From assembly GCF_000447755.1 (NCBI RefSeq), contig NZ_AUNE01000052.1, positions 62,001-126,000 of the forward strand: DNA of 64,000 bases. The letters run 5' to 3'. The notes beneath the pieces were generated by a model that was not told the DNA's origin, made no database searches, and worked only from the letters and a program-made list of their open reading frames with translations. Below, in pieces: positions 8,955 through 56,700 of the stretch (positions are counted from its first letter, which is position 1; the number at the start of each line of letters is the position of its first letter). The position numbers and the translations under genes were made by a program. The stretch is from Bacteriovorax sp. BSW11_IV. Lineage in GTDB: Bacteria; Bdellovibrionota; Bacteriovoracia; Bacteriovoracales; Bacteriovoracaceae.

Positions 8955-9034
8955 TCTTAGTGATTTACGCGATGCTTTTCAATGTGTTTTTTTTAGGGAT
9001 AGAATTTCTTAAACAAACAACAATAGGGGAGATT

Positions 9035-9622: not shown

Positions 9623-9638
9623 GTATTTTTTCATTTTT

Positions 9639-9647: not shown

Positions 9648-9677
9648 AGGTCTCATGATTTCTTTTTTGGAGTTAGC

Positions 9678-11015: not shown

Positions 11016-11112
11016 AATGACCTTCGGCAAAATTTTTCGCTTTCCACTAACAAATTATCACAGGACAATAAAAAGCACTAGATAACATATAAATAAAAAA
11101 GAGGAGACTGTT

Positions 11113-11418: not shown

Positions 11419-11424
11419 GAGCAT

Positions 11425-12321: not shown

Positions 12322-12443
12322 CCATTAATAAGTAAATTGTTGAAATGTCGTAAAGGCCATTTATTGATTTCTTGCAATTTTAAGGACAAAGGGGTCAATA
12401 AGAGTTATGCTAGAGTAAAGAACTTGGGAATTAGGGAATTGCT

Positions 12444-38705: not shown

Positions 38706-38836
38706 GACTGCTCCAAAGTTATTCAGAGGTTAAAAAGCAAGATATGGGCCAAAAAGTGTTCATATTCTTAGGGCAATAGTCCCTTAATATGTCCAGTTGA
38801 CCAGTAGTGTGTCAAAAAGCTAAACACAAAAGGAAT

Positions 38837-38917
38837 ATGAAATTTATGCGAGATTTTATAAGAACTAAGAAAATAAAGAGGGCCACGAGGAAAGTTGGCA
38901 GAATCAAAAGTCAGTAA
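38837..38917 (+). CDS. Possible small basic peptide, 26 residues
   Basis: ATG 38837 is preceded by AAAAGGA at 3-9 bases, a good ribosome-binding site, and opens 26 codons to TAA. The peptide (starting MKFMRDFIRTKKIKR) has 11 Lys/Arg residues and only one acidic residue. A peptide this short can arise by chance; only the strong Shine-Dalgarno and the composition support it. It lies just before the fibre promoter region. Confidence 0.3.
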   Translation: MKFMRDFIRTKKIKRATRKVGRIKSQ

Positions 38918-38987
38918 ATTTTAATGATTTCCAGATTTCAATGGTTTGTTAAAACAATAAAATAATTTTCACATATTCTCCTAAGTC

Positions 38988-39044
38988 ACCGATAAAATTA
39001 AAGCAGTTAACTTTTTTTTACTGCTGTACGTTGGTGGACATTAA
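38988..39044 (+). promoter_or_regulatory. Shared leader element of fibre gene 1
   Basis: ACCGATAA (38988-38995) matches the sigma-28 -10 element, but no good -35 lies 11 bases upstream. It is followed by a hairpin (GCAGTTAA pairing with TTACTGC) and TACGTTGGTGG directly before the TTG start. The order and sequence repeat upstream of fibre gene 3. GGTG can pair with the GGUGAU-complementary part of the 16S tail and may serve as the ribosome-binding site. Confidence 0.5.
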
Positions 39045-42000
39045 TTGAAATTATTTACCGTAATTCTATTTTTCTGCCTCTATCTTGCTCAAGTATTTGG
39101 GAGTGAAGGCATTTCATATTCTGGTCGTTTAGTGACGGCCAGTGGTGCTCCTATCTCTGGACCAGTTGATTTACGTTTTTCAATTATTGTTAACGATGGT
39201 TCTAGCGATAGCACGGCCTGTGGCCTTGTAATTAATAATGCCAACCTTTCAAATGGAGTTTTTAATGTAGAATTTGATTTTGGTTCGGCCTGTGTTGGCG
39301 CAACAAAATCTTTATCAGAAGTCCTCTCAGATGTTCAAAAAAATGGTCATACTGTTTATTTGCAAGTTGAAGATCTTACTCATTCAAAAATTTATTCAAA
39401 ACAAAAAATTCAATCAACTCCAAGGGCCCTTATTGCCAATAAAGTTGCTGAAGGTTCAATCGATCATCTTAGCTTTAAAGGAATTGCTGCAGTTTGCGGG
39501 GCAAACAAAGTTTTAAAAACAACTGCGAGTGGTGGGTTTATTTGTGATGATTATGTTGCAAGTGCTGGCGGGAGTGTTACTTCAGTAAGCGCTGATGCCA
39601 ATGGTGCCTTAACTGTCTCTGGTCCGGCCACTGATCCTGTCTTTGCCGTAAATGTCGATAATACAACTCTTGAAATTTCATCAAACGCTTTACAATTAAA
39701 GTCAGGGACTAATGGTAGTGTTCTTATGACAAATGGTTCAGGTATACCGACCTGGACAATGTTTGGAACTTGTCCAGCAGGTAGCTCTATTCGTGCCATC
39801 AATAATGATGGCACAGTGGTTTGTGAAGGTGATGACAATACAGTATTAAGCGCAGGTAATGGTATCGATGTTCTGTCTCTTGCTGGTGGAACAATTATGA
39901 TCGCCAACGATAGCGTTGATTCCTCAATGATAGCTGATGCTTCAATTGTTGATGGCGATATCAGTGCCAGTGCCAATATCGCCCAATCAAAGATTTCAAA
40001 CTTATCAACTGATCTTGCTAATAAAATTCCCACTAGTGCTCTTTCAACTGATTCAAACCTTGGGACAAGTGACTCTTTAATTCCTTCCCAGAATGCTATT
40101 AAAACTTATGTAGATGCTAGGGCGAGTCAGTGGGGAACAAATCTAACAGATATTTATTATGGTGTCGGAAAAGTGGGAATTGGGACAACTTCTCCTGTTC
40201 GCTTACTTCATGTTAATGAAGATACTAATACACAGGCGATGATTCGTATCGAGTCTGATCGTGATGGCCTAGGGGCCTCAACCGCCGTCTTAGAGTTGAT
40301 GGCACCTTCATCGCCAGCTCCTGCAAACAAAAAGAATTTTCAAATTATGAATGTAAACGGCACGACAGAAAATTACGTGGCCATTACATCTAATGATGAT
40401 GCCATGGGGAGTGCTTCTAAAATATTAAATATCACTCACTCTGGTAAAGTTGGGATTAATAATACAACTCCTAGTGAGGCACTTGATGTTTCGGGAAAAG
40501 TTAAGGCCAATGAGCTTTGTATTGGCGCTGATTGTCGCGCTGTTTGGCCAAGTGCAGGAGGAAGTGGAACAGTTACTTCTGTTACTGGAGGTAGCGGACT
40601 TACAGGGGGAACAATTACAAGCTCGGGGACACTTGCCGTTGATGTAGGAACAACTGCTGGAAAAATAGTCCAACTTGATGGGACTGGAAAACTTGCTACA
40701 AGTGTAGAAACGGATCCGACTGTTCAGGGCTTTGCAAAGTCGGCCCTTCCTACATGTGGTGTTGGACAGGTTTTAAAATCTAATGGAACAAGCTTTAGCT
40801 GTGTTACTGATGTTGATACAGATACCAATACAACTTATAGTGCAGGCACTGGACTTGATCTTACAAGTACAACTTTCTCTGTTGCAACAGGTGGGATTTC
40901 TAATTCTCATATTAATGCCGCTGCCGCTATTGATCAGTCAAAGATTAATGGATTAACAACTGATCTTGCTGCAAAGATGCCATTGAGCTACCTCAATACT
41001 AATACTGCCCTAGGAACAAGTGATGTTCTTGTTCCGTCTCAAAATGCCGTTAAAAACTATGTTGATGCTAGAGCAAGTCAATGGACTAATAGTGGTGCAA
41101 ATATTTATTTCAATACAGGAAAGGTTAGTGTCGGGACTCCAACAATTGGAGCTAGTGAACACTTTAGAGTCAATGCACCTGCGAATAGCTATAGTGCAAC
41201 GTTCTCAAGTCCAAATGATACTTGGATGGCCGTTGAATTTGAAAATACCTCAAGTGGTGCCACATGGGAATCTGCTGTAACGGGATCGACTTCTCATGCA
41301 GGAATGCCGGCAGGTTCATATTATATTTGGGAACAAAATAATATTGGTTCTGGCACTGGAGCACGAGTTGTCGTTGCCCCTGGTGGAAACGTTGGGATCG
41401 GAGTTGCTGCTCCAACAGAGAAGTTGCAAGTAAATGGTAAAGTGAAGGGGACTGAGCTTTGTATTGGAACTGATTGTCGAGCAGCATGGCCAAGTGCCGG
41501 AGGTTCTGGAACAGTCACTTCTGTTGCAACGGGCACAGGACTTACTGGCGGTCCAATCACAAGTTCTGGAACACTTGCTGTTGATGTGGGGACAACTGCT
41601 GGGAAAATTGTACAACTTGATGGATCTGGAAAACTCGCAACAAGTGTAGAAACAGACCCAACGGTACAGGCCTTTGCAAAATCGGCACTACCAACTTGTA
41701 ATGCCGGTGAGGTTTTAAAATCTAATGGCACAAGTTTTAGCTGTGTTACAGATATTGATACAGATACGAATACTACTTACAGTGCATCTACTGGCTTAAG
41801 TTTAACAGGAACTGCTTTTTCAGTTGCTGCTCAAGGGATATTAGATACAAACTTAAGTGGTCTTTCTTCAAGTTGTGGCAATGGACAAATACTTCTTACA
41901 AATGGACTTGGCTCTTTTTATTGTGGTGATAGACACTGGAGTGAAAACTCTGGAGATCTATTCTTTAATACAGGAAGCGTGGCCATTGGAGGAACGACTC

Positions 42001-44843
42001 CCGATACGAGTTCACTTCTTGATTTACAATCGACAACAAAGGGGTTTCTTCCTCCAAGAATGACTACCGCACAAAGAGATGCTATCGCTAGTCCTAGTGA
42101 AGGTTTAATAATTTTTAATACGACAACGTCTAAATTAGATTTTTATGATGGAAGCTCATGGAAATCAATGTTTGGTAAAGCGAATTATATAAAATTAGGG
42201 ATGAACGCTTATCAAACAGTGGATAACGGGAGTGTTATAAATTTTAATACAATCATTTCATCGAATGGAATGACTACTTCAGGTAATGGTATCAACTTAA
42301 AAGCTGGAGTTACTTATAGACTTGAAGCTGCCGTTAGTACAGTTGCTGCTTCAGGTAGTGGATATCTTGGATATTACCTTCGATCAGCTGCAGGTACAAT
42401 TGGACTTCAGGCCTATACAACAACACCTGTTGGTACAGGTAATTATGGATTTAAAGGACAAGTTTTTGAAATATACACGCCAGCAATAGATGAGAATGTC
42501 TGGATTCAAGTTGGAGATGATAATATTGGAACTGGGCAAGTCTCTCATCATTACAACACATACTTTGCTGCTACAGAATTAAATGTGAGTTACAGCACAA
42601 GTGGTGGAGGCTCATTAACAACTGATTCAGTTACCAGTAATGAAATTGCTGATAATGCTGTTACGACTACTGAAATTTCAGATGGAACTATTACTTCTTC
42701 TGATATTGCAACAAATACTATAACCGTAGATAACGTTGATTTTGCTTCTTCTAATGGAATTAATATCCCTCAACTTGCAAGTAATCCAGCCTCAGGTGTC
42801 GCTGGGCAAATATACTATAACACTGCCACTAATAAAATGATGGTTTATGACGGGACTACTTGGGTAGATCTCTCATCTTCTACTGGATCAAGTGGTGATG
42901 CTTTAGGGGCCCCTGTTGATATCGCTCTTAATACTTCTGTTCAGGCCACACAAGATGGACTTCTCGTAGTTGTTCCTGGTGGTGGAGGAACACATAGTTA
43001 TCATGAGGTTCGCGTTGACACGGTTGATCCACCTGTTGCGCTAAGAGGCTGGGGGAAGGCCTACCACTCAGGTGGTTCAATGGCGACTTCTACAGTTCCA
43101 ATTAGAAAAAATGAATATTTCAAAGTTGTAAATACCTATGGAAATGATCCAGGGCTTATTCGCTTTTTCCCACTCTCTGGTGGAGGATCATCACTAGGTG
43201 ATAGCAATGGTGTGAAAATCCCTCAACTAGCAAGTGACCCTTCGTCTCCAGTGACTGGACAAGTTTATTTTAATACGACGACTAAAAAGCTAATGGTTTA
43301 TAACGGAACATCTTGGGAAGAGGTTGGATCATCAAGTGGTGGTCTCGTTCATACGCAAACTGTAGATCAAGCAAGCTCAGTATCATTGCCAAATACTGTT
43401 TGGACTGATGTTCTTAGTTTAGTTGTTAGTAAAACTTCTAAATTTAATATTTTCGCAGGGGGAACTGGGCAAACAAGTGCATCTTGGACGTACTTTGCCT
43501 TTCATTGCAAGCTTTATAAAAATGCAGATATTTTACAAGATAGTCCTTTCTATTACGGTGGTGGGCAGTCAGGGTCTACGGCCTATGTGCCTCAAAGACT
43601 TTATTCGCTCTCTGATCTAACTTCTGGCGATGTGATTAAAGTTTCATGTATGCGCTCAAGTGATGTTTCATCAAGTACGAATGGATGGAATATTACTCTT
43701 GTTGAGGCAGCATCTGGAGGATCATCACTAGGTGATAGCAATGGTGTGAAAATCCCTCAACTTGCAAGTGCTCCTTCATCACCAGTTGTTGGGCAGATGT
43801 ATTACAACACAAGCTCTGGTCTAACAATGGTTTACGACGGAACAACGTGGCAGTCTCTTGGTAATAGCATCCCAGCGGGTGCCATTATGGCCTTCGATGC
43901 AACTAGTTGTCCTGCTGGTTGGTCTGAGTATACCGCGGCCCAAGGTCGTTTCTTAAGAGGTATTGATAAGACGGGAACTAATATTGATCCGGCCGGACAA
44001 AGAGCTGCCGGTCATATCCAAAATTTTGATTGGGTTGGTTTTAGTATGACTAATACTCTTCAAAATGTGAGTTCGGGCTACAGCCATGGACCTGTGGATA
44101 TGGGGAAATCAACATCGACATACGTCGGTAATCTCTTTGCTGGGGGATGGAATAATCCATCTGCGGCATCAGGGGTAAGATGGAATGCCGCCGATGAGAT
44201 CCGTCCTAAAAACGTTGCCGTTCTTTATTGTTCATTCAATGGTGTCTCTGCTCCTCAAACGGCCGGTTCAAATCAATTAAAGGTTGGAGATACATCTGTA
44301 GAAATGACTGATAACGGAAGTGATGGCTCAATATCAATGAAAGTTGATGGCAGCGAAGCTCTTCATATTTCAAATGATGGTAAAGTGGGAATCGGAACAT
44401 CTACACCAAGTGCAAAACTTGAAGTGGTTGGAGGCAATATTCAGGCCCCTGATCATGTTTCATTTGAGGCAAAAAATTGTAGTGGTTCTGTTTCTTCTGG
44501 ATCAAGAATAGTTTGGGAATCTGTCGGCCACAATACAGGTGGACATTACAATAGTTCTAATGGTGTTTTCACTGCACCTGTAAATGGTATTTACCAATTT
44601 GGATTTAACACTCTCGCGAATAATGCTGGCTCGGGAGAGTATCGCTATGGTTTTTATAAGAATGGTGCTCCCGAAAATATTATGATCACAGTTAAAGCAG
44701 CAAACTCTTGGGAAACAGTTCAGGGTACGCTTATGACTAAACTTAATGCTGGAGACACCATTGATATTCGCTACACCATGGGAACTGGTGTGACTTATAC
44801 AGATTGTAACTTTAATCGCTTTTGGGGGCGTTTAGAGAATTAA
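39045..44843 (+). CDS. Giant secreted fibre protein 1 (MAT-like; tail collar and C1q-like tips)
   Basis: A 1932-residue protein with a Sec signal (MKLFTVILFFCLYLAQVFG) starting at TTG 39045. The mature N-terminus ISYSGRLVTASGAPISGPVDL (about 22-155) is shared with the two following genes. A shaft of short Asn/Thr/Ser/Gly-rich tail-fibre repeats follows (KVGIGTTSP; KNYVDARASQW twice; a 314-residue repeat). Then come beta-sandwich modules at about 1050-1185, 1285-1380 and 1435-1558, a phage tail-collar-like domain at about 1608-1735 (IPAGAIMAFDATSCPAGW, GRFLRGID), and a C1q-like C-terminal domain (about 1806-1932). It has no S74 chaperone domain. It is probably a trimeric surface fibre, likely an adhesin. 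The next gene follows after 26 bp. Confidence 0.8.
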   Translation: MKLFTVILFFCLYLAQVFGSEGISYSGRLVTASGAPISGPVDLRFSIIVNDGSSDSTACGLVINNANLSNGVFNVEFDFGSACVGATKSLSEVLSDVQKNGHTVYLQVEDLTHSKIYSKQKIQSTPRALIANKVAEGSIDHLSFKGIAAVCGANKVLKTTASGGFICDDYVASAGGSVTSVSADANGALTVSGPATDPVFAVNVDNTTLEISSNALQLKSGTNGSVLMTNGSGIPTWTMFGTCPAGSSIRAINNDGTVVCEGDDNTVLSAGNGIDVLSLAGGTIMIANDSVDSSMIADASIVDGDISASANIAQSKISNLSTDLANKIPTSALSTDSNLGTSDSLIPSQNAIKTYVDARASQWGTNLTDIYYGVGKVGIGTTSPVRLLHVNEDTNTQAMIRIESDRDGLGASTAVLELMAPSSPAPANKKNFQIMNVNGTTENYVAITSNDDAMGSASKILNITHSGKVGINNTTPSEALDVSGKVKANELCIGADCRAVWPSAGGSGTVTSVTGGSGLTGGTITSSGTLAVDVGTTAGKIVQLDGTGKLATSVETDPTVQGFAKSALPTCGVGQVLKSNGTSFSCVTDVDTDTNTTYSAGTGLDLTSTTFSVATGGISNSHINAAAAIDQSKINGLTTDLAAKMPLSYLNTNTALGTSDVLVPSQNAVKNYVDARASQWTNSGANIYFNTGKVSVGTPTIGASEHFRVNAPANSYSATFSSPNDTWMAVEFENTSSGATWESAVTGSTSHAGMPAGSYYIWEQNNIGSGTGARVVVAPGGNVGIGVAAPTEKLQVNGKVKGTELCIGTDCRAAWPSAGGSGTVTSVATGTGLTGGPITSSGTLAVDVGTTAGKIVQLDGSGKLATSVETDPTVQAFAKSALPTCNAGEVLKSNGTSFSCVTDIDTDTNTTYSASTGLSLTGTAFSVAAQGILDTNLSGLSSSCGNGQILLTNGLGSFYCGDRHWSENSGDLFFNTGSVAIGGTTPDTSSLLDLQSTTKGFLPPRMTTAQRDAIASPSEGLIIFNTTTSKLDFYDGSSWKSMFGKANYIKLGMNAYQTVDNGSVINFNTIISSNGMTTSGNGINLKAGVTYRLEAAVSTVAASGSGYLGYYLRSAAGTIGLQAYTTTPVGTGNYGFKGQVFEIYTPAIDENVWIQVGDDNIGTGQVSHHYNTYFAATELNVSYSTSGGGSLTTDSVTSNEIADNAVTTTEISDGTITSSDIATNTITVDNVDFASSNGINIPQLASNPASGVAGQIYYNTATNKMMVYDGTTWVDLSSSTGSSGDALGAPVDIALNTSVQATQDGLLVVVPGGGGTHSYHEVRVDTVDPPVALRGWGKAYHSGGSMATSTVPIRKNEYFKVVNTYGNDPGLIRFFPLSGGGSSLGDSNGVKIPQLASDPSSPVTGQVYFNTTTKKLMVYNGTSWEEVGSSSGGLVHTQTVDQASSVSLPNTVWTDVLSLVVSKTSKFNIFAGGTGQTSASWTYFAFHCKLYKNADILQDSPFYYGGGQSGSTAYVPQRLYSLSDLTSGDVIKVSCMRSSDVSSSTNGWNITLVEAASGGSSLGDSNGVKIPQLASAPSSPVVGQMYYNTSSGLTMVYDGTTWQSLGNSIPAGAIMAFDATSCPAGWSEYTAAQGRFLRGIDKTGTNIDPAGQRAAGHIQNFDWVGFSMTNTLQNVSSGYSHGPVDMGKSTSTYVGNLFAGGWNNPSAASGVRWNAADEIRPKNVAVLYCSFNGVSAPQTAGSNQLKVGDTSVEMTDNGSDGSISMKVDGSEALHISNDGKVGIGTSTPSAKLEVVGGNIQAPDHVSFEAKNCSGSVSSGSRIVWESVGHNTGGHYNSSNGVFTAPVNGIYQFGFNTLANNAGSGEYRYGFYKNGAPENIMITVKAANSWETVQGTLMTKLNAGDTIDIRYTMGTGVTYTDCNFNRFWGRLEN
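40494..40886 (+). repeat. Fibre shaft repeat, copy A
   Basis: This encodes ELCIGADCRAVWPSAGGSG and continues to TFSVA, 131 codons. It recurs 942 bp (exactly 314 codons) downstream and once in fibre gene 2. The proteins are nearly identical, but many third codon positions differ. Confidence 0.85.
41436..41828 (+). repeat. Fibre shaft repeat, copy B
   Basis: This is the second in-gene copy, in frame with copy A and of the same length. It encodes ELCIGTDCRAAWPSAGGSG through AFSVA. The repeat lies downstream of a unique module (nt 41080-41400) that copy A lacks. Confidence 0.85.
43181..43228 (+). repeat. 48-bp exact direct repeat, left copy
   Basis: This 48-bp sequence encodes the linker GGSSLGDSNGVKIPQL. 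An identical copy lies at 43715-43762, 534 bp (178 codons) away, in the same frame. The two flank a complete beta-sandwich module of fibre gene 1. Confidence 0.95.
43715..43762 (+). repeat. 48-bp exact direct repeat, right copy
   Basis: This is the right-hand copy of the linker repeat at 43181-43228, with no mismatch over 48 bases although the flanks differ. Recombination between the copies would remove or duplicate the module in frame. Confidence 0.95.
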
Positions 44844-44849
44844 TATTTT

Positions 44850-44869
44850 TTGTTGTACGTTGGTGCTTT
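44850..44869 (+). promoter_or_regulatory. Shared translation leader of fibre gene 2
   Basis: TTGTTGTACGTTGGTG directly precedes the ATG at 44870 and repeats the TACGTTGGTG core seen before fibre genes 1 and 3. No promoter box fits in the 26-bp gap, so only the translation signal is shared. Confidence 0.5.
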
Positions 44870-47800
44870 ATGTACAGATTTTTAATTCTATTTGTTTTGA
44901 TGTCATTCAATGGGTTTGCCAGTGAGAGTATCTCTTACTCTGGGCGACTCGTGAATAATTTAGGTGCACCCGTTAGCGGTAGTGTTGATCTAAGATTCAC
45001 CATTATTACCAATGATGGGAGCGTTGATACTGATTCTTGTGTGATCAATGTATTAAATGCTCCATTGGCCAATGGTGTTTTTAACGTTAGCTTTGATTTT
45101 GGTACAACATGTACAGGATCAACAACACTTAGTTCGGTTCTTAGCGCCGCTTTAAAAAATTCTCATAGTGTTTATATTCAAGTCGAAGATGTTACTCACG
45201 CAAAAACATATACAAAACAACTTATTAACATGAGTCCTGTTTCTCTTGTCGCTAAAACTGTGGCAGAGAGTGCTCTAAATATTAAAAACTTCAATGCAGA
45301 TCAGTCGGCCTGTGGCGCTAATAAAGTTTTAAAAACGAAGGCCGATGGATCTTTTGAATGTGCAGATTATGTTGTTGGGGCCGGTGGGACTGTCACTTCT
45401 GTTTCGGCCGATCCTGCAAGTGCTATTGTTGTGGCCGGAACATCCACCGATCCAACTATTGGTGTTGCTGTTGATAATACAACCATCGAAGTTAATTCAA
45501 ACCAACTAAAAATAAAATCTGGGGCCAATGGTTCTGTTCTAATGACAGATGGTAGTGGTGTTGTTAATTGGACAATGTTTGGTACTTGTGCGGCGGGAAG
45601 TTCAATTCGTGCAATTAATGCTGATGGAACAGTTGTTTGTGAATCAGATGATGGAGCTAATCTTAGTGCTGGAAATGGAATCAATTCTGTTTCACTTGCA
45701 GGCGGAGTTGTGACAATTGATGCTGTCGCAGGCTCTGGTCTTACTTTTACTGCCGGCTCTTTAGATATAAACTCTTCAATCATTCAAAAAAGAGTAAGTG
45801 CAAATTGTAGTGCTGGCAATGCCATCAAAACGATAAACGCTGATGGAACAGTTGTTTGTGAAGCGATCCCTGCAGGAGTCACTCCTGGCTCTATCGTAAA
45901 TGCTGATATTAGTGCGAGCGCGGCCATCGATCAGTCAAAGATAAATAATTTAACAACAGATCTTGCCGCAAAAATGCCTTTAAGTGCACTTTCAACAGAT
46001 GCAAATCTTGGTTCTAGCGATACCGTTGTTCCTTCTCAGAATGCTGTTAAAAATTATGTTGATGCAAGGGCCTCCCAATGGGGAACAAATATAACAGACA
46101 TTTATTATGCTGTTGGTAAAGTAGGGATTGGTACAACGACACCTGCAAAACTTCTTCATGTTAATGAAGATACAAATACTCAGGCCATGATTCGTATCGA
46201 ATCGGATCGCGACGCTGCTGGTGCTTCAACTGCTGTGGTTGAATTTATGGCCCCTTCTTCTCCTGCTTCTGCAGATAAGAAAAATTTTCAAATCATGAAT
46301 GTTAATGGAGCGACTGAAAACTATCTTGCTATCACATCAAATGATGATGCTATGGTAAGTGCCTCTAAAATTTTGAATATTACTCACTCTGGAAAAGTGG
46401 GGATTAATAAAACCAACCCTAGTGAAGCACTCGATGTCCTCGGTAAGGTGAAGGGGACAGAACTTTGTATCGGGGCCGATTGCCGTGCTGTTTGGCCAAG
46501 TGCTGGTGGTGGTGGAACTGTGACCTCTGTTTCTGCTGGTGCGGGGCTTACTGGTGGAACAATTACAAGTACGGGAACTCTCGCTGTCGATGTGGGAACA
46601 ACTGCAGGTAAAATTGTTCAACTTGATGGCACTGGTAAGCTTGCGACAAGTGTTGAAACTGATCCTACTGTATCTGCTTTTGCAAAAACATCACTTCCTA
46701 CTTGTAGTGTAGGCCAAGTTCTAAAATCTGATGGAACTAGTTTTACTTGTGTAAATGATATTGATACAGATACAGACACTGATACAACTTATACGGCAAG
46801 TACAGGACTTTCTCTTGTAGGGACAGCTTTTTCAGTTGCGGCCCAAGGGATTCTTGATACTCATTTAAGTGGTCTTTCTTCTAGTTGTGCCAATGGACAG
46901 ATCCTTTTAACAAATGGTCTAGGATCATTTTTTTGTGGTGATAGGTTATGGAGTGAGAACTCTGGGAATCTCTTTTTTAGTACAGGTAATGTGACAATAG
47001 GTGGAACAACACCTGATGGGAGTTCATTACTAGACTTGCAATCTACGTCTAAAGGTTTTTTACCTCCTCGTATGACAACTGCTCAGCGTGACGCTATTTC
47101 ATCTCCGGCAGTTGGTCTTATCGTTTTTAATATTACAACAAATAAATTGAATTCTTATAATGGATCTGAATGGGCGGAAATTAGTACAAGTAACAATATT
47201 TCGTTTCGCGTTCATCGTAATAATGTCGATCAATCAATCAGTGCCGCAACTAATACTCTCGTAGATTGGACAACTGAAGAGTTTGATACCGCTAATTCTT
47301 TTGATCCAGCAACAAATAGATTTCAACCAAATGTTGCAGGGACGTATATTGTAAATTTCAATGTTGGAACGAGTGGATTAGATACTTCAGGCAATCCACA
47401 TACTTATGCAATTATTTCTAAAAATGGTACTGCTATCGCGAGACAATTCAAATACTCACCAGGTGCAATAGATAATAACGTAATTAGTATCAGTGCTATT
47501 GTTCAAATGAATGGGACAACAGATTACTTGGAAACACTTGTTAGTATAAGTTCCGGTCCTTCCCCGCATATTTATGGTTTAACAAACTTTACTTATTTTA
47601 GTGGGGCCCTCATTACTGGAAGTGGAGGAACTGGGGGAACGTTAGTTTCCAATTCCGTAACAAGTAATGAAATTGCTGACAATGCTGTGACGACAACTGA
47701 AATTGCAGATGGAACTATTACTTCTTCTGATATCGCCGCCAATACTATTTCCGTAGATAATGTAGATTTTGCTTCTTCAAATGGAATTAATATTCCGAGT

Positions 47801-50800
47801 CTTGCCGCAAATCCAGGTTCGGCGGTTGCTGGTCAAATTTACTTTAACACATCAACTAATAAGCTCATGATTTACAACGGTTCAACATGGAGTGAAATTG
47901 GAAGTGGAGCATCTTCAAGTGTTGAGAGCCGTATTGACGTAAAGTATACGGGATCAAGTTTAACGGGATCAGGAACTGTAAACTATACAACTGAAACTTA
48001 CGACGCCAATAATGAATTTGATCTCACAACAGATCGCTTTACACCTAAGCAGGCCGGTAATTACCTTGTTGTTGTTCAAAACGCTGCTGATGGAATGAGT
48101 ACTGGTGCCCACCATTATGCTATCATTGCAAAAAATGGGGCCACTCACCATGCTGTGTTTACAAGAACAATTGGTTCAGGCAATGCGGATCAAATTGTTG
48201 TAAGTATTGTTCCTATGAATGGTACAACCGATTATATTACAGGGGGCTACAACCTCTCGAGTGGTTATGTTAGTTCATCAACTATGAAAGCGGTTTATCT
48301 CAATAGCGGAGGTTCAGGTGCCTTAGCGGCCAATTCTGTTACAACGACAGAAATCACAGATGGAACAATTACGGCCTCTGATATTGCTGACAATGCAATT
48401 ACTGTTGATAAAATTGATTTTGCTTCTTCGAATGGTATCAATATCCCAAGTCTGGCCAGTGATCCTGCTTCAGGAACTTCTGGGCAAATTTACTATAATA
48501 CAACCTCTAATAAGATGATGTACTACAATGGTTCTTCGTGGGCAGAAATGGGCACGGGTGCGGCAGGTTCAACTAATTTTGCAAACGTTACTGGTTATAC
48601 AACCCCAGGTTCCTATACCTATACAGTTCCATCAAATGTAGCCTTTATCAAAGTAACCGTGGCCGGTGGTGGTGGGGGCTCTGGTGTTCCTTACGGTGCT
48701 GGTAGCGGTAATGGGGGACCTGGTGGTACTTCTGTCTTTGGTTCTGTGTCTGCATCTGGTGGTACGGGTGGTAGCGAGGCCAATGAAGGTGCAACAGGTG
48801 GTTCCGTCGCTCCTGGTAATCCCGGTACCGGTACAGGTGGTGATATTAATATTACTGGTGGTGGTGCCCTTGCTGGTCCACTAAGTGATTATGCAAGTTA
48901 CTCGGTTTCAATGGGGGGAGCTGGTGGTCTCGCTATTAAGACTTTTGCTGTATCATCATCGCAAACTTATTCAGTAACTGTTGGAGCAGGAGGTTCAGGC
49001 TACAGTGGAAGCCGTGCAGGTCTTCCAGGTTATGTCCTTATTGAAGAGTACACTTCAACGGGTGTGGGCGCTGCAGATAATCTTGGGAACCATGTGGTCT
49101 CACAAAATTTAGATCTCGATACTTTTAAACTTGTTGGAAATGGTGGAAATGAAGGGATAAGTATTTCCTCAACTGGTAAAGTTGGGATTGGTGTAAGTAC
49201 TCCCACAGATTCACTTGAAGTCGCGAGTACTGATACTCAAAGTGTTGTAAGAGTTGAGTCTACAGGTGACCAGCTTACAAATTATGCCGCTATTAATTTA
49301 ACAAATTTTTCAACTGATACAAGTATAGACAGTAGGCTTTTCATGGCCGCCCATGGGAATGATAGGACGATGACTCGTTATGGAATGAGTGTTGCGGGAT
49401 GGGCCGAGCTCTCGACTATTAATGCGGGTAATGTGAATGGATTAATGATTGGTAACGATAGTGCTAAACCAATTGTTTTCGGTACAAATGATCTTGAAAG
49501 AATGCGTGTCACAGAAACAGGAAATGTTGGTATTGGGACAATTGCTCCTTCTGAAAAATTAGAAGTTGCTGGAAATATCAAGGCCAATGGACGTTTAAAA
49601 GATTTAGATCACTATTTAAGAACAATTGATATTGCTGATGGCTGGTCCGTAGGGGATTATTTTGAAGTCGTGCAGGCAACTCCAAATTCTGCTGGTGTTT
49701 CAAGTATGTGGGAGATTTATGTCTCAGGTACAAGAGGAAATTGGACGGAAGGGCATCTTTATCGTGTGTCCGGTGGTCACTCCGATGCATCTTCTTGGTT
49801 AGAAGTTCCCCAGACTGCTGAGAATTCTTATGAAGGGGCATCGAAGTGTTTTACTGTTGATATGAAAGGAAATGGAAATTCACCTCAATTTCGTTTACGT
49901 GCAGTTAAAGCAAGTGGGTCATGCGGTATCTCTGGAGTAGCGCTTCCTTTGAATGTTAAAATTAGATCAATTGGAAATAACTCTGCATGGACTGATCTAA
50001 GTGGTACCGGCAATGATGTCACTGTTACAGCGAAGAAATCTCAAGGTCTCAATTGGTCACTTTATACAGGTAAACCTGTAGACGTTTCAGGCGTGCTTGC
50101 CTTACATGCAAATAGTACAGGGCAAGTGGGAGTCGGAACAGATAACCCTGCTTCTAAACTTACTGTTAATGGTGATATCACATCAATAGGGGGAAGTTTA
50201 ATTCTACAAAGACCTGTTACAGGTGGTGGATGGGCAAGAGGGATGATGTATACACCTGATGGAAGTGTGAACCCAACAGCTGATGGACTTGTTGGAATCG
50301 GTGTCTATGGAACAGGTACCACTCAGTCATCAATTTTCTTAACACACGGATCGTCACCATGGTCCTCTCCTACAGGAATGCACATATTCTCTAACGGTAA
50401 TGTGGCCATTGGTATGGGATCTGCATCGTATAAATTACACGTCAACGGAGCTGTCGCGGGAAATTCTGCCTTTGTGAATACATCAGACGAGCGCTATAAA
50501 AAAGATATTCATACAATCGAAAGTGCGAGTGAGAAAATTAAAAAACTAAAAGGAGTGGAGTTCGTGTGGAGAAACGATGAATTCCCGAATAAAGAATTCA
50601 AAGTAGGACAAGATATTGGTGTGATTGCTCAAAATGTTCTTTCTGTTTTTCCCGAAGCGGTAGAAGTTGACGATGATGGTTATTACTCAGTTGCTTATTC
50701 AAAATTAGTGGCACCACTTATTGAAGCTTTTAAGGAATTAGATCAAAACCAAACGATGCAAAAAACAATGATTAATGGCATGAGTGAGACAGTTCAAAAA

Positions 50801-50938
50801 CATGATGTTGAAATCAATGCTTTGAAAACTGAGTTGTCAAAGCAGGCCAATACAATCGACGATCTTAAAGAAGAAAACCGTCAATTAAAAGAGGCCATCT
50901 GCTCTATAAATGATTCTCTGGCGTTATGTCGAAAATAG
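44870..50938 (+). CDS. Giant secreted fibre protein 2 (MAT-like; Gly-rich module and S74 chaperone)
   Basis: A 2022-residue protein starting at ATG 44870 (an in-frame codon at 44822 lies inside fibre gene 1). The signal MYRFLILFVLMSFNGFA is followed by ESISYSGRLVNNLGAPVSG. The shaft is similar to protein 1 (KNYVDARASQW, ELCIGADCRAVW). Two C1q-like beta-sandwiches lie at about 774-917 and 1014-1148, a Gly-rich domain at about 1264-1330, and another beta module at about 1600-1700. The C-terminus (about 1870-2022) is a peptidase S74 intramolecular chaperone (TSDERYKKDI, with the Ser/Lys box) ending in a coiled coil and CSINDSLALC. S74 domains trimerise fibres and then cut themselves off. Confidence 0.8.
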   Translation: MYRFLILFVLMSFNGFASESISYSGRLVNNLGAPVSGSVDLRFTIITNDGSVDTDSCVINVLNAPLANGVFNVSFDFGTTCTGSTTLSSVLSAALKNSHSVYIQVEDVTHAKTYTKQLINMSPVSLVAKTVAESALNIKNFNADQSACGANKVLKTKADGSFECADYVVGAGGTVTSVSADPASAIVVAGTSTDPTIGVAVDNTTIEVNSNQLKIKSGANGSVLMTDGSGVVNWTMFGTCAAGSSIRAINADGTVVCESDDGANLSAGNGINSVSLAGGVVTIDAVAGSGLTFTAGSLDINSSIIQKRVSANCSAGNAIKTINADGTVVCEAIPAGVTPGSIVNADISASAAIDQSKINNLTTDLAAKMPLSALSTDANLGSSDTVVPSQNAVKNYVDARASQWGTNITDIYYAVGKVGIGTTTPAKLLHVNEDTNTQAMIRIESDRDAAGASTAVVEFMAPSSPASADKKNFQIMNVNGATENYLAITSNDDAMVSASKILNITHSGKVGINKTNPSEALDVLGKVKGTELCIGADCRAVWPSAGGGGTVTSVSAGAGLTGGTITSTGTLAVDVGTTAGKIVQLDGTGKLATSVETDPTVSAFAKTSLPTCSVGQVLKSDGTSFTCVNDIDTDTDTDTTYTASTGLSLVGTAFSVAAQGILDTHLSGLSSSCANGQILLTNGLGSFFCGDRLWSENSGNLFFSTGNVTIGGTTPDGSSLLDLQSTSKGFLPPRMTTAQRDAISSPAVGLIVFNITTNKLNSYNGSEWAEISTSNNISFRVHRNNVDQSISAATNTLVDWTTEEFDTANSFDPATNRFQPNVAGTYIVNFNVGTSGLDTSGNPHTYAIISKNGTAIARQFKYSPGAIDNNVISISAIVQMNGTTDYLETLVSISSGPSPHIYGLTNFTYFSGALITGSGGTGGTLVSNSVTSNEIADNAVTTTEIADGTITSSDIAANTISVDNVDFASSNGINIPSLAANPGSAVAGQIYFNTSTNKLMIYNGSTWSEIGSGASSSVESRIDVKYTGSSLTGSGTVNYTTETYDANNEFDLTTDRFTPKQAGNYLVVVQNAADGMSTGAHHYAIIAKNGATHHAVFTRTIGSGNADQIVVSIVPMNGTTDYITGGYNLSSGYVSSSTMKAVYLNSGGSGALAANSVTTTEITDGTITASDIADNAITVDKIDFASSNGINIPSLASDPASGTSGQIYYNTTSNKMMYYNGSSWAEMGTGAAGSTNFANVTGYTTPGSYTYTVPSNVAFIKVTVAGGGGGSGVPYGAGSGNGGPGGTSVFGSVSASGGTGGSEANEGATGGSVAPGNPGTGTGGDINITGGGALAGPLSDYASYSVSMGGAGGLAIKTFAVSSSQTYSVTVGAGGSGYSGSRAGLPGYVLIEEYTSTGVGAADNLGNHVVSQNLDLDTFKLVGNGGNEGISISSTGKVGIGVSTPTDSLEVASTDTQSVVRVESTGDQLTNYAAINLTNFSTDTSIDSRLFMAAHGNDRTMTRYGMSVAGWAELSTINAGNVNGLMIGNDSAKPIVFGTNDLERMRVTETGNVGIGTIAPSEKLEVAGNIKANGRLKDLDHYLRTIDIADGWSVGDYFEVVQATPNSAGVSSMWEIYVSGTRGNWTEGHLYRVSGGHSDASSWLEVPQTAENSYEGASKCFTVDMKGNGNSPQFRLRAVKASGSCGISGVALPLNVKIRSIGNNSAWTDLSGTGNDVTVTAKKSQGLNWSLYTGKPVDVSGVLALHANSTGQVGVGTDNPASKLTVNGDITSIGGSLILQRPVTGGGWARGMMYTPDGSVNPTADGLVGIGVYGTGTTQSSIFLTHGSSPWSSPTGMHIFSNGNVAIGMGSASYKLHVNGAVAGNSAFVNTSDERYKKDIHTIESASEKIKKLKGVEFVWRNDEFPNKEFKVGQDIGVIAQNVLSVFPEAVEVDDDGYYSVAYSKLVAPLIEAFKELDQNQTMQKTMINGMSETVQKHDVEINALKTELSKQANTIDDLKEENRQLKEAICSINDSLALCRK
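46442..46840 (+). repeat. Fibre shaft repeat, copy C
   Basis: This counterpart of copies A and B lies inside fibre gene 2 and encodes ELCIGADCRAVWPSAGGGG to AFSVA. It is 399 bp, two codons longer, through an extra Asp-Thr pair. The protein is well conserved, with extensive synonymous change. Confidence 0.8.
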
Positions 50939-51040
50939 GATATAACGCCTTAAATGACTGGCATTTTCATTTAATCTTCACAATTTGATCTTGAAATTTG
51001 AATCAAATTTTCAGTTACTTATGGGCCTTATCTGAATAAA

Positions 51041-51067
51041 TAAACATTTAAGCTAACATACCGATAA
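51041..51067 (+). promoter_or_regulatory. FliA (sigma-28)-type promoter of fibre gene 3
   Basis: TAAACATT (51041-51048), 11 bases, then ACCGATAA (51060-51067) matches the enterobacterial FliA consensus TAAAGTTT-N11-GCCGATAA in order and exact spacing. It lies 51 bases before the ATG at 51118 and just upstream of the shared hairpin leader. Confidence 0.65.
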
Positions 51068-51071
51068 AATA

Positions 51072-51117
51072 GGTGCAGTTAAGAGTTTTTAGCTTTAATT
51101 GCAGTACGTTGGTGGTT
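51072..51117 (+). promoter_or_regulatory. Shared hairpin leader of fibre gene 3
   Basis: TGCAGTTAAGAG can pair with CTTTAATTGCA (one GU pair) across a short T-rich loop. TACGTTGGTGG follows, directly before the ATG. The same arrangement precedes fibre gene 1. The GGTGG probably serves as a non-canonical ribosome-binding site. Confidence 0.5.
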
Positions 51118-54100
51118 ATGTTTAAAGTCATTTTTCTATTATTTTCGTTTTCAACTTTTGGGTCCCAGAATATTTCTTATTCTGGTCGTCTTGTGCAAAG
51201 TAATGGCGCTCCCATTTCTGGCCCCGTTGATTTAACTCTTGATATTATTGTAAATGATGGTGCTAGTGATAATGTTCAATGTACTATCAATGTTACGAAT
51301 GTTTCATTGAGTAATGGTGTTTTCAATGTTGAACTAGATTATGCAACAACATGTGCTTCTAATTCTAAAACTCTCGCTACAGTTTTAAGCGATAGCGCGA
51401 AAGCATCTCACACGAATTATATTCAAATCACTGATCAAACAAACTCAAAAGTTTATACAAAACAAAAAATTAGCAACACTCCCACAGCACTAGTTTCACT
51501 CTATGCAAATAGTGTTGTTAATGGAGCGATTTCTCAACAATCACTTTTAGGAGTAAGTGCAAACTGCACCGCCGGGCAAGTATTAAAAACAAATGCCGAT
51601 GGTAGTTTCTATTGTGCTAATGATTTGAGTGGTGCGGGAACAATTACAGGGGTAAATGCGAACGCTCCCTTGTCTGCGAGTGCAGGACCCAACGTTACAT
51701 TATCTCTTGCCGCTGCAGATGCTTCAACAGATGGTTATCTGAGCTCAACAGATTGGAATACTTTTAATAGCAAAGTTGGTCTTCCTTCTGGTGGTAATAC
51801 TACTCACTATTTGAAAGGTGATAACTCTTGGGCAACTCTTGCAACCGAAGTTGAGGCGATTGCCCTTTCTTCATTTTCACCAGTTAATAGTGCCGTTACA
51901 ACAGGAGATACTATTAAAGGGGCCCTTGAAAAACTTCAAGGACAAATTTCTCAAGTGACTTCGAGTATGCCAAGTTCAACGGATGACCTTCCTCAAGGTT
52001 CAACTAATTTATACTATAGTGCGACTGCCGCCAGAGCAGATCTTATTGCAAATGCGATTAACGATAATGAACTCACAAAAGCTCCTAACGGCGAAGCCGT
52101 ATATGAGGCGATGGCCTTAAAACAAAATCAAATTACTCAAAGTGATGCTATAGTTCCAGGGCGTGTCCAAGTAAGCATGCAAAATGGGATCACAGTACTT
52201 CCTTATGGAACAAATGTTGGTGAGACGGGGGAAGTTCAGTTTAAAGAACTTATTTCTAATGGTGCAGATTATGTGGGATTGAAAGCTCCAGATGCTCTGG
52301 CATCAAGCTTTGTTCTAACTCTTCCAAATACCCAAGGTAACTCTGGTGAGGTTTTAACAAATAATGGTTCTGGAGTTCTTGGTTGGAGTACTTTAAGTGG
52401 TGGCTCCCTTGCTCCTGATTCAGTAAATTCATCGAAGATTGTTGATGGCTCTATTGTAAATGCAGATATCAATGCTAGTGCTGCAATTGATGCAACAAAA
52501 CTTGCTAGTGGGAGTGTTGATAATACAGAACTCTCTTACTTAAATGGAGTGACTTCTGCAATTCAAACGCAAATTGATAGTAAGGTTGCAAAAACCACAA
52601 CAATAAATGGAAAGGCCCTTTCTGCAAACGTAACATTGGTAACTACTGATGTGGCAGAAGGAACAAATTTATATTTCACAGACGCAAGAGCAAAGGCCTC
52701 TGCTGTAGCAGATAGCATTAGTGATGCCGTAACGAATGTGGCGCCTTCACAAAATGCTGTTTTCGATGCCCTTGCACTTAAAGCAAATGCTTCGGCCCTT
52801 CCAAATTATGTAGCGAAGGCCGATCTTACAAATTGTACGGCCGCCGATAAAAAATTGTCTTGGAACGGAACAAGTTGGAGTTGTGATTCTCTAGTTTCAT
52901 TGAGTGGAGATGTCACAGGGGCGATAAATTCAAATACTGTCGTGGCACTTCAAGGAAGAGCTGTTAATAGTGGGGCACCAAGTTCAAATGATGTGCTTAC
53001 TTGGAACGGGAGTGCGTGGGCCCCATTGGCCGTCCCATCAAGTGCTGATAATTTAGGTAATCATACAGCTACTCAGAATATTAATCTTGCAAGCTCTAAA
53101 CTCGTTGGTAATGGTGGGACAGAGGGGCTGTCTATTGCGGCAAACGGAAATATCGGTGTGTCTACATCTGGTGCCCTCGATAAATTGACGGTTTCAAACT
53201 CTTTTAGAATAAGAAGTGCTGCCCAAAACAATTTTATGGCCCCGAGTACAAGTACTACAGAGGACTTTAGGATTTTCATACAAGATGATGCGAACAATGG
53301 TAATCCCTACGGTACTGGTAATAATTCTGCCATCATTTTTGAAAACCAAGATTTAAATAACCCTGCACCTGACGACAGTATGTACTTTGTGAACACGGGT
53401 AACGATAATCTTCCAAAAATTGCCATGGCCATAAAAGGTGATGGTAAAATTGGTATCGGGAAAGCTGCTCCTACAGAAATTTTGGATGTTAATGGCAATG
53501 TTAAGGCCACGGGATTTATAGGTGATGGTTCTGGGCTAACAAACGTTAGTGCTTCTAATACCAGCAATATTGTTTCAACAACGATTGGGGCCGATTCAGA
53601 TACAAATGGAACTGGTGAGATCATTTTTCAAACGGGATCAACCGCTAAGATGACAATTAAAAATGATGGCAAAATCGGCATTGGAACTTCTGCACCTGTC
53701 GATGACTTCACCATCAAAAAAGATGGCAGTACTATCCGCCTTGAATCTTCTACTGAGAATATCGCAAATTCGAGTAGTATCGTTTTTGCTGAAAATGCAT
53801 CACAAGATCACTTCACACTTCGCTACGATGGCGATGCTGCTCAACAGGGCAGTGGTGCACTAAAATTCAACGCCAATGGTGTTGGTGATGTTATGTCTAT
53901 TACTCGCTCTGGTCGAGTGGGGATTGGTACATCTGATCCTGCCTACCCGTTAGAAGTTCAATCTTCTTCAGGTTTAGCTTTTTCTCTTTATCGCCCTGTG
54001 AATACTTTAAACAACGCTTCAGGAACGATCTTCTCCCTAAATAATTCTGCCGGAACTAAGAAAGATTACGCCAGGATATTCGGTGGCATCCAAGACAATA

Positions 54101-56097
54101 CGGCAAGCGCTGAAAAAGGTTTTCTGTCTTTCAATGTTGCCGATGGTTCAGGGACTTGGGGAATTGGATACGAACAAGAAAAAATGCGACTCACTTCAGA
54201 AGGCTACCTTGGTCTAGGAACATCAACTCCTGAGCGCGCTCTTCATATTGCTGGAACTGGCGGTGTGAACGATGATGTATTAATTGACTCTAATAATGAC
54301 AATACTGCTTCTTCTTTACTTGCTTTAAGAAAATCTCGTGGTACTGCGAGTGCTCCAACTCAAGCACTCACAAATGATATCATTGGTCTTGTGTCTTTTA
54401 GAGGACACGATGGCACTGCTTATACTAATGTCGCTGACATTCGCTCAATTGCTGAGTCCGATTTGGGGACAGCACCATCGGGACGACTTGATTTTCTTAC
54501 TCGAAATGCTGCTGGTACTCTTGCCGAGCGTATGACAATAAAAGGTGAAGGAGATATTGGTATTGGTGTGACTTCACCAACTGAAAAATTTCACGTTGCT
54601 GGAAATGGACTTTTTAGAGGGACTACTCCTAAGTTAAAAGTTCAAGAGTCAAACCACGCTGCAGGTATTTCAGAAATTCAAGTCGGTCAAAGTGATTGGT
54701 ACGGTTCACTTCAATATAATTCGGCCACAGATGTTTTTTCAATCGATACTTACAATAACGGAACAGTTACAGGAACTGGTGGAATTCATATCAAACACAC
54801 TAGTGGCAATGTGGGTATTGGGACACAGGCTGCATCAGAACTTTTGGATGTTAATGGAAATGTGAAAATTACTGGGGATTTAAAAATGTCTGGTAGTGAT
54901 AGTTATATTTGGACTAACGGAACAGGAACTGGTTATACAGGTATTTATGATCAGGCCAATTCGAAAGTTCTTTTATATACTTCTGAAACAAATGGCCACG
55001 TTGGTGTGGGTACCGCGACACCAAACTCTAAGTTAACAGTGAACTCAAACGTTTTTACAAATGCACCTCTCAATCATGCAGAAGGGGGACTTCTTGTTAT
55101 TAATGGCAATGATTTTGGTGGTATTGGTCTTCTTGATAGAGACGGTAACAGTGCAACGACAAACGATTATAGTACGGTCCTATTTTACGGCGATGATTTA
55201 GGTGAAGACCTTCACTTATCTCATTGGCGCTCAGGGGCGAGTGCCTTTAGACATGATGTGACGATTAAGGGTGAAACAGGAAAAGTTGGATTTGGGACCA
55301 CAAACCCTGAATCAATTATTCACGTGGTCGGTGGAGCTCCTTATTTAACTTGGGAAGAAACAGATACGACTCAAAAATTTTACACCGGTGTGGATGGAGC
55401 TGGTTGGTGGATTCGACAGGGCACTACTGCAAACCCAGATATTTTCACTGTTAAAAATACTGGCTTCATTGGTATCAACGATTCCACTCCTTCAGCGGCC
55501 TTAACTGTTGGGGGAAATATCGCCGCAAGTGGTTGGGTTGGAGCTGGTTGTGAAGGTGCCTGTAGTACAGATGCCTATGTCATTAATTATGCCGATGGTA
55601 GAATTCATACCTACGATGGTAGCTCTGCAGTTTGTTCAAAGGCCGGTGGTGCTTCGACATTTACTTGTTCATCAGATGAGCGCTTAAAAAATACTGTTGA
55701 AGATTTCACTGACGGTTTAAATTATGTCCTTCAATTACGACCAAGAACATATTATTGGAATAATGATGATAAAAATATTTTACAATATGGATTTATCGCT
55801 CAAGAAGTTCAAAAAGTAATTCCTCACGCAGTGAGTGAACAAGAGCGACCAGAAGGTGTTTTTCTTGGCCTTGATCAAGGGGCATTCACTCCGTATATTA
55901 TTAACGCCATTCATGATCTCGATGCTAAAATTGAGAATAATAGGGCGATGATGAAGGCCATGAGTGAAGGTGTTGTTCTTGAGAACTCTCGAAAAATTGC
56001 TAGTCTTGAAAAAGAAGTTGATGACTTGAAAAAAGAAAATCAGGCCATGAAAGAAGCGCTATGCTCAATCAAGCCTGATTTGAAGATCTGCGAATAA
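51118..56097 (+). CDS. Giant secreted fibre protein 3 (MAT-like; S74 chaperone)
   Basis: A 1659-residue protein starting at ATG 51118; an in-frame codon at 51073 lies within the leader and is rejected. The signal MFKVIFLLFSFSTFG is followed by SQNISYSGRLVQSNGAPISG. The shaft includes the phage-fibre motif ASTDGYLSSTDWNTFNSK near residues 205-222 and many IGIGT/VGIGT-S-P turns that start each shaft segment (about 775-1480). The C-terminus (about 1517-1659) is an S74 domain, SSDERLKNTVEDF with the Ser/Lys box, then a coiled coil and CSIKPDLKIC. The central modules differ from those of proteins 1 and 2. The gene has its own FliA-like promoter and abuts the convergent gene with no gap. Confidence 0.8.
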   Translation: MFKVIFLLFSFSTFGSQNISYSGRLVQSNGAPISGPVDLTLDIIVNDGASDNVQCTINVTNVSLSNGVFNVELDYATTCASNSKTLATVLSDSAKASHTNYIQITDQTNSKVYTKQKISNTPTALVSLYANSVVNGAISQQSLLGVSANCTAGQVLKTNADGSFYCANDLSGAGTITGVNANAPLSASAGPNVTLSLAAADASTDGYLSSTDWNTFNSKVGLPSGGNTTHYLKGDNSWATLATEVEAIALSSFSPVNSAVTTGDTIKGALEKLQGQISQVTSSMPSSTDDLPQGSTNLYYSATAARADLIANAINDNELTKAPNGEAVYEAMALKQNQITQSDAIVPGRVQVSMQNGITVLPYGTNVGETGEVQFKELISNGADYVGLKAPDALASSFVLTLPNTQGNSGEVLTNNGSGVLGWSTLSGGSLAPDSVNSSKIVDGSIVNADINASAAIDATKLASGSVDNTELSYLNGVTSAIQTQIDSKVAKTTTINGKALSANVTLVTTDVAEGTNLYFTDARAKASAVADSISDAVTNVAPSQNAVFDALALKANASALPNYVAKADLTNCTAADKKLSWNGTSWSCDSLVSLSGDVTGAINSNTVVALQGRAVNSGAPSSNDVLTWNGSAWAPLAVPSSADNLGNHTATQNINLASSKLVGNGGTEGLSIAANGNIGVSTSGALDKLTVSNSFRIRSAAQNNFMAPSTSTTEDFRIFIQDDANNGNPYGTGNNSAIIFENQDLNNPAPDDSMYFVNTGNDNLPKIAMAIKGDGKIGIGKAAPTEILDVNGNVKATGFIGDGSGLTNVSASNTSNIVSTTIGADSDTNGTGEIIFQTGSTAKMTIKNDGKIGIGTSAPVDDFTIKKDGSTIRLESSTENIANSSSIVFAENASQDHFTLRYDGDAAQQGSGALKFNANGVGDVMSITRSGRVGIGTSDPAYPLEVQSSSGLAFSLYRPVNTLNNASGTIFSLNNSAGTKKDYARIFGGIQDNTASAEKGFLSFNVADGSGTWGIGYEQEKMRLTSEGYLGLGTSTPERALHIAGTGGVNDDVLIDSNNDNTASSLLALRKSRGTASAPTQALTNDIIGLVSFRGHDGTAYTNVADIRSIAESDLGTAPSGRLDFLTRNAAGTLAERMTIKGEGDIGIGVTSPTEKFHVAGNGLFRGTTPKLKVQESNHAAGISEIQVGQSDWYGSLQYNSATDVFSIDTYNNGTVTGTGGIHIKHTSGNVGIGTQAASELLDVNGNVKITGDLKMSGSDSYIWTNGTGTGYTGIYDQANSKVLLYTSETNGHVGVGTATPNSKLTVNSNVFTNAPLNHAEGGLLVINGNDFGGIGLLDRDGNSATTNDYSTVLFYGDDLGEDLHLSHWRSGASAFRHDVTIKGETGKVGFGTTNPESIIHVVGGAPYLTWEETDTTQKFYTGVDGAGWWIRQGTTANPDIFTVKNTGFIGINDSTPSAALTVGGNIAASGWVGAGCEGACSTDAYVINYADGRIHTYDGSSAVCSKAGGASTFTCSSDERLKNTVEDFTDGLNYVLQLRPRTYYWNNDDKNILQYGFIAQEVQKVIPHAVSEQERPEGVFLGLDQGAFTPYIINAIHDLDAKIENNRAMMKAMSEGVVLENSRKIASLEKEVDDLKKENQAMKEALCSIKPDLKICE

Positions 56098-56568
56098 TTA
56101 TTTCTTTAAAAATTCATAAACTGTCACTTCTGGTTGTGGATCGTGACAGATATCGTACTTATAAACTTGTACAGCATAGAATTTTGTAATTGTTGTCTCG
56201 ATAGGATCGTGAGCAACATATGGTTTTTCATAGTTGAATTCAATGTGGAATTCTACTTTTTCATATTCGTCACAATAAGAAATATTCTTCATTGTTTGAG
56301 TTTCAACAATCCCTTTGTAGTCAACATTTAGACTTTGTCTTGTAATATCTTTTGCTACAATTGTAAGTGGGATAGTCACAACTTTATCACCATATAGAAT
56401 TGTCGCTTCATCTTTGCTGAAATTTACTGATTTGATTTTAACTTCGATTTCTTTTGGAAATTTAAAAGAGTCATCATTTGATTGTGATGTGAACTCTTTT
56501 GTTGAATAAAATGTGTCTGCCATTGTTAATTGTGAAAATGTCACTAGTACGGCCAATAAAAATTTCAT
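56098..56568 (-). CDS. Exported protein of unknown function
   Basis: A 156-residue protein with signal MKFLLAVLVTFSQLTMA and a mature beta-rich domain of alternating charged and hydrophobic residues (KFPKEIEVKIKSVNFS, EKVEFHIEFNYEK). Two Cys (ISYCDEYE and YDICHDP) could form a disulfide. No family was recognised. Its stop (TAA) lies directly against the stop of fibre gene 3, reading TAATTA on the plus strand, with no terminator between them. A ribosome-binding site (GGGAG) precedes the ATG. Confidence 0.6.
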   Translation of the reverse strand: MKFLLAVLVTFSQLTMADTFYSTKEFTSQSNDDSFKFPKEIEVKIKSVNFSKDEATILYGDKVVTIPLTIVAKDITRQSLNVDYKGIVETQTMKNISYCDEYEKVEFHIEFNYEKPYVAHDPIETTITKFYAVQVYKYDICHDPQPEVTVYEFLKK

Positions 56569-56670
56569 GTGTAACTCCCTCGATTAATTCTAGGGCCGTT
56601 ATGCATTAACAATTAAAAAACTGTAAAGTTAGGATCGTGTTTGGATTTAATTTGGTGTGGCAATTTTGAA

Positions 56671-56700
56671 AATAGGGCCGGTGAAGGCCCTATTTATTTT
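56671..56700 (-). terminator. Intrinsic terminator of the minus-strand gene
   Basis: AATAGGGCC (56671-56679) pairs with GGCCCTATT (56686-56694) around a GGTGAA loop. On the minus strand the hairpin is followed by a TTTTC run. It lies just downstream of the stop at 56704. Confidence 0.75.

Follow-up and report, generated by a model that had tools for sequence, protein, structure and literature searches.

A tandem array of divergent MAT-type fibre genes in a Halobacteriovorax-related bacterium

INTRODUCTION

The stretch of Bacteriovorax sp. BSW11_IV DNA analysed here (64,000 nucleotides; hereafter the window) contains three giant adjacent genes, and the question is what their products are and whether they serve predation. 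A sequence-only reading had proposed that they encode mosaic fibres built like the mosaic adhesive trimer (MAT) proteins of Bdellovibrio bacteriovorus, and that they make up a prey-recognition island. The MAT plan consists of a signal peptide, a β domain of ~130 amino acids, cap-looped β-helix shafts and tips of the S74 or of other adhesive types (PMC10769870). The window genome (3.65 Mb) belongs to the family of H. marinus, but to another genus; it encodes HMG-CoA reductase, a mevalonate gene that is a weak predator marker (PMC4646340).

RESULTS

Organization of the array and domain content

The three genes, M1 (39045-44843), M2 (44870-50938) and M3 (51118-56097), are intact open reading frames without internal stops on the forward strand and code for proteins of 1932, 2022 and 1659 amino acids, the sizes given by the sequence-only reading; M1 has a TTG start. 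M1 and M2 are separated by 26 bp, M2 and M3 by about 180 bp, and a terminator-like hairpin lies 3' of the array (56670-56695, + strand). Rfam, tRNA and tandem-repeat scans gave no matches. As had been claimed, each protein begins with a Sec-type signal, which is without lipobox (read from the translations), directly followed by a common, conserved β-rich domain of ~130 amino acids (ISYSGRLV, GAP-SG-VDL; 39102-39530 in M1, 44921-45352 in M2 and 51163-51609 in M3, all + strand), with 55-58% identity between the three.

The C-terminal regions differ. M2 and M3 do end in S74 chaperone/protease domains (Pfam; 50483-50662, E = 4e-14, and 55672-55833, E = 3e-15, respectively), each with the SDxxxK motif (SDERYK at residue 1872 of M2, SDERLK at residue 1519 of M3). 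M1 is of the NS74 type and carries instead an adhesive C1q end domain (residues 1818-1921, 44496-44807; Pfam, E = 4e-11); a single-sequence, single-chain model of its tip had a pLDDT of 41 and was not relied on. The other tip modules that had been read by eye fared unequally: M2 has a glycine-rich module (Gly_rich_2, PF21722; 48854-49030, E = 6e-6) and an internal module with weak C1q-like similarity, below the cut-off (47246-47512), whereas the 'tail-collar' stretch of M1 had no Pfam match at E ≤ 1 and consists of a visible motif alone (PAGAIMAFD..CPAGW..GRFLRG..RPKNVAVLYC).

The shafts of M1-M3 match tail-fibre PHROGs and phage tail fibres, in agreement with the sequence-only reading. Such matches would also be expected if the genes were tail-fibre genes of a prophage or of a phage-derived injection device, and phage S74 tail spikes and fibres (PF13884; PHROG tail-fibre families) do share with M1-M3 the S74 domain with SDxxxK and the repeated shaft motifs. 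However, the matches to phage records are weak (23-43% identity and at most 41% query coverage among the matches listed), and viral scans with three tip pieces found no relatives. Phage tail fibres are recognized by linked phage structural genes and the lack of a secretion signal; M1-M3, in contrast, are bacterial genes with Sec signals and a MAT N-terminal domain (see below), beside which no linked phage genes were seen. Because of the Sec signals and the conserved chromosomal genes on both flanks we rejected a prophage origin, which we regard as very improbable.

Mosaic structure and duplication

When M1 and M2 were compared in 80-residue windows, identity reached 80-90% over M1 residues 320-560 and 800-1000; the ends are unrelated. 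In the shaft of M3, residues 321-480 are 72-81% identical to a fibre encoded on contig C2 of the genome, the N-terminal domain of which is much more distant, and the nearest relatives of other M3 pieces are lipoprotein-type S74 fibres. Genome G049 encodes a fibre whose end shares about 50% identity with the module preceding S74 in M2. A tree built from N-terminal domains places M1-M3 in one group (87/86) within which M1 and M2 pair (100/98), and the three domains of G010, a genome of the same genus, also group together (99/98). Grouping of this kind would be expected if genes were duplicated or converted locally within arrays. As part of the overall explanation that we consider probable, the array would be a lineage-specific expansion that arose by duplication and module exchange.

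Relationship to the MAT fibres of Bdellovibrio

Searches of the PDB with phmmer matched both M1 and M2 to bd2133 (8OND), M1 also to other Bdellovibrio 'cell wall surface anchor' fibres, and M3 to 8OL4 (E = 4e-13) and 8OJN; the two M3 stretches that match these MAT structures lie in the shaft region at 53602-54966 (+ strand). NCBIfam Bdello_MAT_N (NF053851) was the top NCBIfam family for all seven N-terminal domains of the genome. Their scores (20-30 bits) stay below its cut-off of 60, which is an NCBI naming threshold and not a feature taken from the paper that defined the family; the low scores indicate a divergent branch. The profile search that the sequence-only reading had suggested bore out the homology of the N-terminal domain: alignment of a profile of 14 N-terminal domains from the family of the window genome with one of six Bdellovibrio-type MAT-N sequences (hhalign) gave a probability of 95.7% and E = 9.6e-9 over 113 columns. 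The cap-loop pattern VGxxxxxPxxL/VGxxxxxPxxxL, for which the reference in the β-helical shaft of MATs is of the V-G-G/N-x-x-x-P-x-x-x-L type, occurs in 4, 5 and 2 copies in M1, M2 and M3, versus 0.05-0.09 in shuffled sequences. An AlphaFold model of the N-terminal domain is β-rich (pLDDT 80-93 over residues 1-100). Foldseek comparison of this model with the PDB returned no match with E under 1e-3 (TM-scores around 0.4), and the domain thus has no known fold relative; the same is reported for the MAT N-terminal domain (PMC10769870).

The PDB matches, the profile-profile alignment, the cap-loop motifs and the SDxxxK motifs identify M1-M3, as judged from sequence, as divergent fibres of the MAT kind in a Halobacteriovorax-related bacterium. 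The Bdellovibrio comparison made by the sequence-only reading therefore stands, as the PDB matches, MAT-N homology, cap-loop motifs and S74 or C1q ends all agree with it. With the MATs of B. bacteriovorus HD100 (Caulton et al. 2024, PMC10769870) the proteins share the signal peptide, a homologous N-terminal domain, the shaft motifs and S74 or TNF/C1q-like ends, and Bdellovibrio-type genomes, too, have a FliA-type -10 element upstream of MAT genes. They differ in being longer (1659-2022 versus typically about 1000 amino acids), in an N-terminal domain that scores under the NCBIfam MAT-N cut-off, in their tandem accessory arrangement, in shaft modules shared at 80-90% identity between neighbours and in a leader element, GTACGTTGGT.

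Distant MAT-N-like domains (LSYSGRLTQADGAPVSGPVDVTVKFW...) were also seen in two proteobacterial MAGs, Loclat_bin-10810 and LacPavin_0920_SED3_MAG_51_70 (L019-L022), in one instance (L020) within an open frame about 1570 amino acids long. Both MAGs encode HMG-CoA reductase.

Genomic context and distribution

Synteny comparison delimits an accessory island at 37725-56568, from the gene of an astacin-like metalloprotease (M12A), which has a signal of the lipoprotein type and is encoded beside M1 (37725-38705, - strand), to a gene for a small secreted protein (56098-56568, - strand). It is flanked by a conserved SEC-C gene on one side and by the genes before nqrA on the other. Seven relatives, one of the same genus (G010) and six outside it (G002, G049, G068, G079, G086 and G012), share the gene order MATE, methyltransferase, SEC-C, nqrABC, and all seven are without a fibre gene at the syntenic nqrA site. 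SEC-C directly adjoins nqrA in the six that lie outside the genus; in G010 the two are separated by unrelated genes and by an orthologue of the small gene found at 56704 in the window. The three MAT genes of G010 are located elsewhere in its genome and are syntenic with a second cluster of MAT genes that the window genome has on contig C2. The array is thus an accessory island. Its GC content (about 0.41) was set aside as a sign of foreign origin, since fibre composition may account for it.

Among 95 genomes sampled from the family, 13 have this branch of MAT genes, which is hence dispensable for life in it. The branch profile gave strong matches in only one family of the phylum, and MAT-N was found in none of 14 control genomes. 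The sequence-only reading had named conservation in non-predatory relatives without variable tips as a finding that would refute it; what we found instead is an accessory array with variable tips.

Promoters and leader element

A FliA-type -10 element, CCGATA, with a weak -35 is located upstream of M1 (38989-38994, + strand), and a FliA-type promoter with the exact pattern TAAA-N16-CCGATA upstream of M3 (51041-51066, + strand); CCGATAAAAT is found upstream of both genes. M2, which follows M1 so closely, has no FliA site of its own and is probably co-transcribed with M1. Among the 48 window genes checked, only M1 and M3 have CCGATA within 110 bases upstream (chance expectation 0.016 per 110 nt). 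The hexamer precedes all six MAT genes of the genome other than M2 and two of the three in G010, the third having TCGATA. The leaders of MAT genes from G002 and G068 have CCGAAT and those from G049 and G086 CCGATT, while CCGATAA was present in 12/12 Bdellovibrio-type MAT genes checked, 43-65 bases before the domain match. Of 140 attack-phase promoters in Bdellovibrio, 92 carry TTAAG-N16-CCGATA, a motif attributed to FliA; cell-surface anchors are among the genes concerned (PMC3627812). The window genome encodes one FliA that scores over the family cut-off and contains 40 exact TAAA-N14-16-CCGATA sites (versus 15 for the reversed control), and the open reading frames 3' of such sites include, by our reading, MotA-like and chemoreceptor-like proteins. 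When the window by itself was scanned loosely for FliA sites, there was no excess over random sequence; our promoter assignment therefore derives from conservation across paralogues and lineages and not from the strength of any single site. This conservation suggests that FliA-type promoters tie the array to the attack phase.

These observations bear on two other interpretations. The first is that M1-M3 are general adhesins, for particles, biofilm or self-recognition, with no relation to prey. C1q-like, Gly-rich and S74 modules are indeed common in many adhesive and phage proteins, and none of the genes described here has a known phenotype. However, the N-terminal domain and the shafts are homologous to those of Bdellovibrio prey-handling fibres, the promoters are of the attack-phase type, and the branch profile is confined to one family of the phylum as far as strong matches go, with MAT-N missing from the control genomes; we consider general adhesins improbable, though less so than a prophage. 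The second is that the proteins are MAT-type fibres that act after attachment (at the entry port, in the bdelloplast or on a deposited vesicle) and not in first prey recognition. Some Bdellovibrio MATs do reach the predator vesicle or the bdelloplast, and slight entry defects were the sole phenotype of two deletion mutants (PMC10769870). On the other hand, FliA-type promoters suggest synthesis before entry, and an accessory array with variable tips suits the recognition of variable prey. A purely post-attachment role is in our view a serious but minority possibility.

The leader element GTACGTTGGT (10 bases) precedes all three genes (39026-39035, 44855-44864 and 51104-51113, all + strand). Its distance to the start codon is 4-9 bases in M1, M2, M3 and one MAT gene on C2, and there are only two other copies in the genome, both apparently in coding sequence. 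As the copies before M1-M3 are in three different reading frames, the element is conserved as nucleotide sequence; perhaps it is part of the ribosome site or the target of a small RNA. Variants of it occur before MAT genes in L068, L071 and L072. A hairpin was predicted in all five leaders folded; we do not claim it, given the small number of sequences and the lack of variation in its 5' arm.

Candidate partners and other fibre genes

A protein of ~500 amino acids with one N-terminal membrane helix is encoded next to MAT genes in the family of the window genome (L065, L067-L070, L072-L074, L144 and L145). In a sample of 358 genomes it was present in 26/26 family members that bear MAT-N, in three more family members and, weakly, once outside the family. 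Pfam had no match for the two full-length copies scanned, and the protein represents an undescribed family, which includes L060:1632-3149 and L143:7569-8999 (both - strand); copies in the window genome are located at C2:51634-52461 and C27:108571-109428. According to the MAT study, the surface element that holds the MAT N-terminal domain is not known (PMC10769870). We tentatively put forward that this protein, with its conserved outer domain, could be a dedicated MAT partner, an envelope anchor or export guide for the MAT N-terminal domain that would serve the array in trans, although we think it somewhat doubtful.

Directly 3' of several MAT genes, including that of H. marinus SJ (G002), lies a gene for a secreted protein of ~1200 amino acids (L058:10085-13690, L059:13744-17385 on the - strand, L065:12325-15957, L067:14400-17993, L069:13456-17046 and L071:4573-8151 on the - strand; 35-75% mutual identity). 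Each of the two copies scanned has several Fibrinogen_C domains and COLFI, and one has Laminin_G. Neither this protein nor the membrane-helix protein is encoded in the window, and the array would thus depend on copies encoded at other sites. The MAT locus of H. marinus SJ (L067) resembles the array in that it encodes a fibre of 1932 amino acids with an S74 end and an N-terminal domain homologous to those of the array, and in having CCGAATAGAAT upstream, but its MAT gene is single, located elsewhere and flanked by both neighbour genes, and its nqrA site is without fibre array.

The window genome also has a second fibre family, with lipobox-type signals, tail-fibre shafts, mostly an S74 end and no MAT N-terminal domain (L062:4553-8383 and 8648-12868; L063:9136-13197; L064:5323-7077 and 7228-12366; L147:2524-6294). 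FliA-like sites are present upstream of some members.

DISCUSSION

The explanation that we favour, and consider probable overall, is that M1-M3 are Sec-exported, attack-phase MAT fibres with exchangeable tips that bind prey ligands, and that the array widens or retunes the prey range. Attack-phase cells would transcribe M1-M2 and M3 from the FliA promoters; the Sec pathway would export the proteins, which would then fold as trimers, and self-cleavage of S74 would mature the tips of M2 and M3. The N-terminal domain would hold all three proteins at the cell surface. Each fibre would probably be a long trimeric shaft with an exchangeable tip, a C1q/TNF-like head in the case of M1, and the different tips would meet prey surfaces during attachment or entry, the ligands being most likely glycans. 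Duplication and module exchange in the array may then widen or retune the range of prey. The fact that deletion of single MATs in B. bacteriovorus has little effect (PMC10769870) counts against this explanation, and so do the N-terminal scores under the MAT-N cut-off, the occurrence of the branch in just 13 of 95 genomes of the family, the weak -35 of M1 and the outcome of the loose FliA scan. Gene structure, homology, mosaicism, accessory status and conservation of the promoter motif are shown directly by the analysis. We infer a role in predation, for which the term 'prey-recognition island' of the sequence-only reading is well motivated.

The kind of protein was already known; what is new is the lineage in which it occurs, together with the array, its leader and the candidate partners. 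MAT prey-handling fibres are extended here, with profile evidence, from Bdellovibrio to the Halobacteriovorax lineage, and the promoter motif common to both lineages links MAT genes to the attack-phase regulator. The conserved ~500-amino acid neighbour gene provides a specific, testable candidate for the holder of MAT-N. One species has a whole array that its closest relative lacks, and this species-specific set, with its exchangeable tips and attack-phase-type promoters, implies that the fibres probably help to decide which prey the cell can hold.
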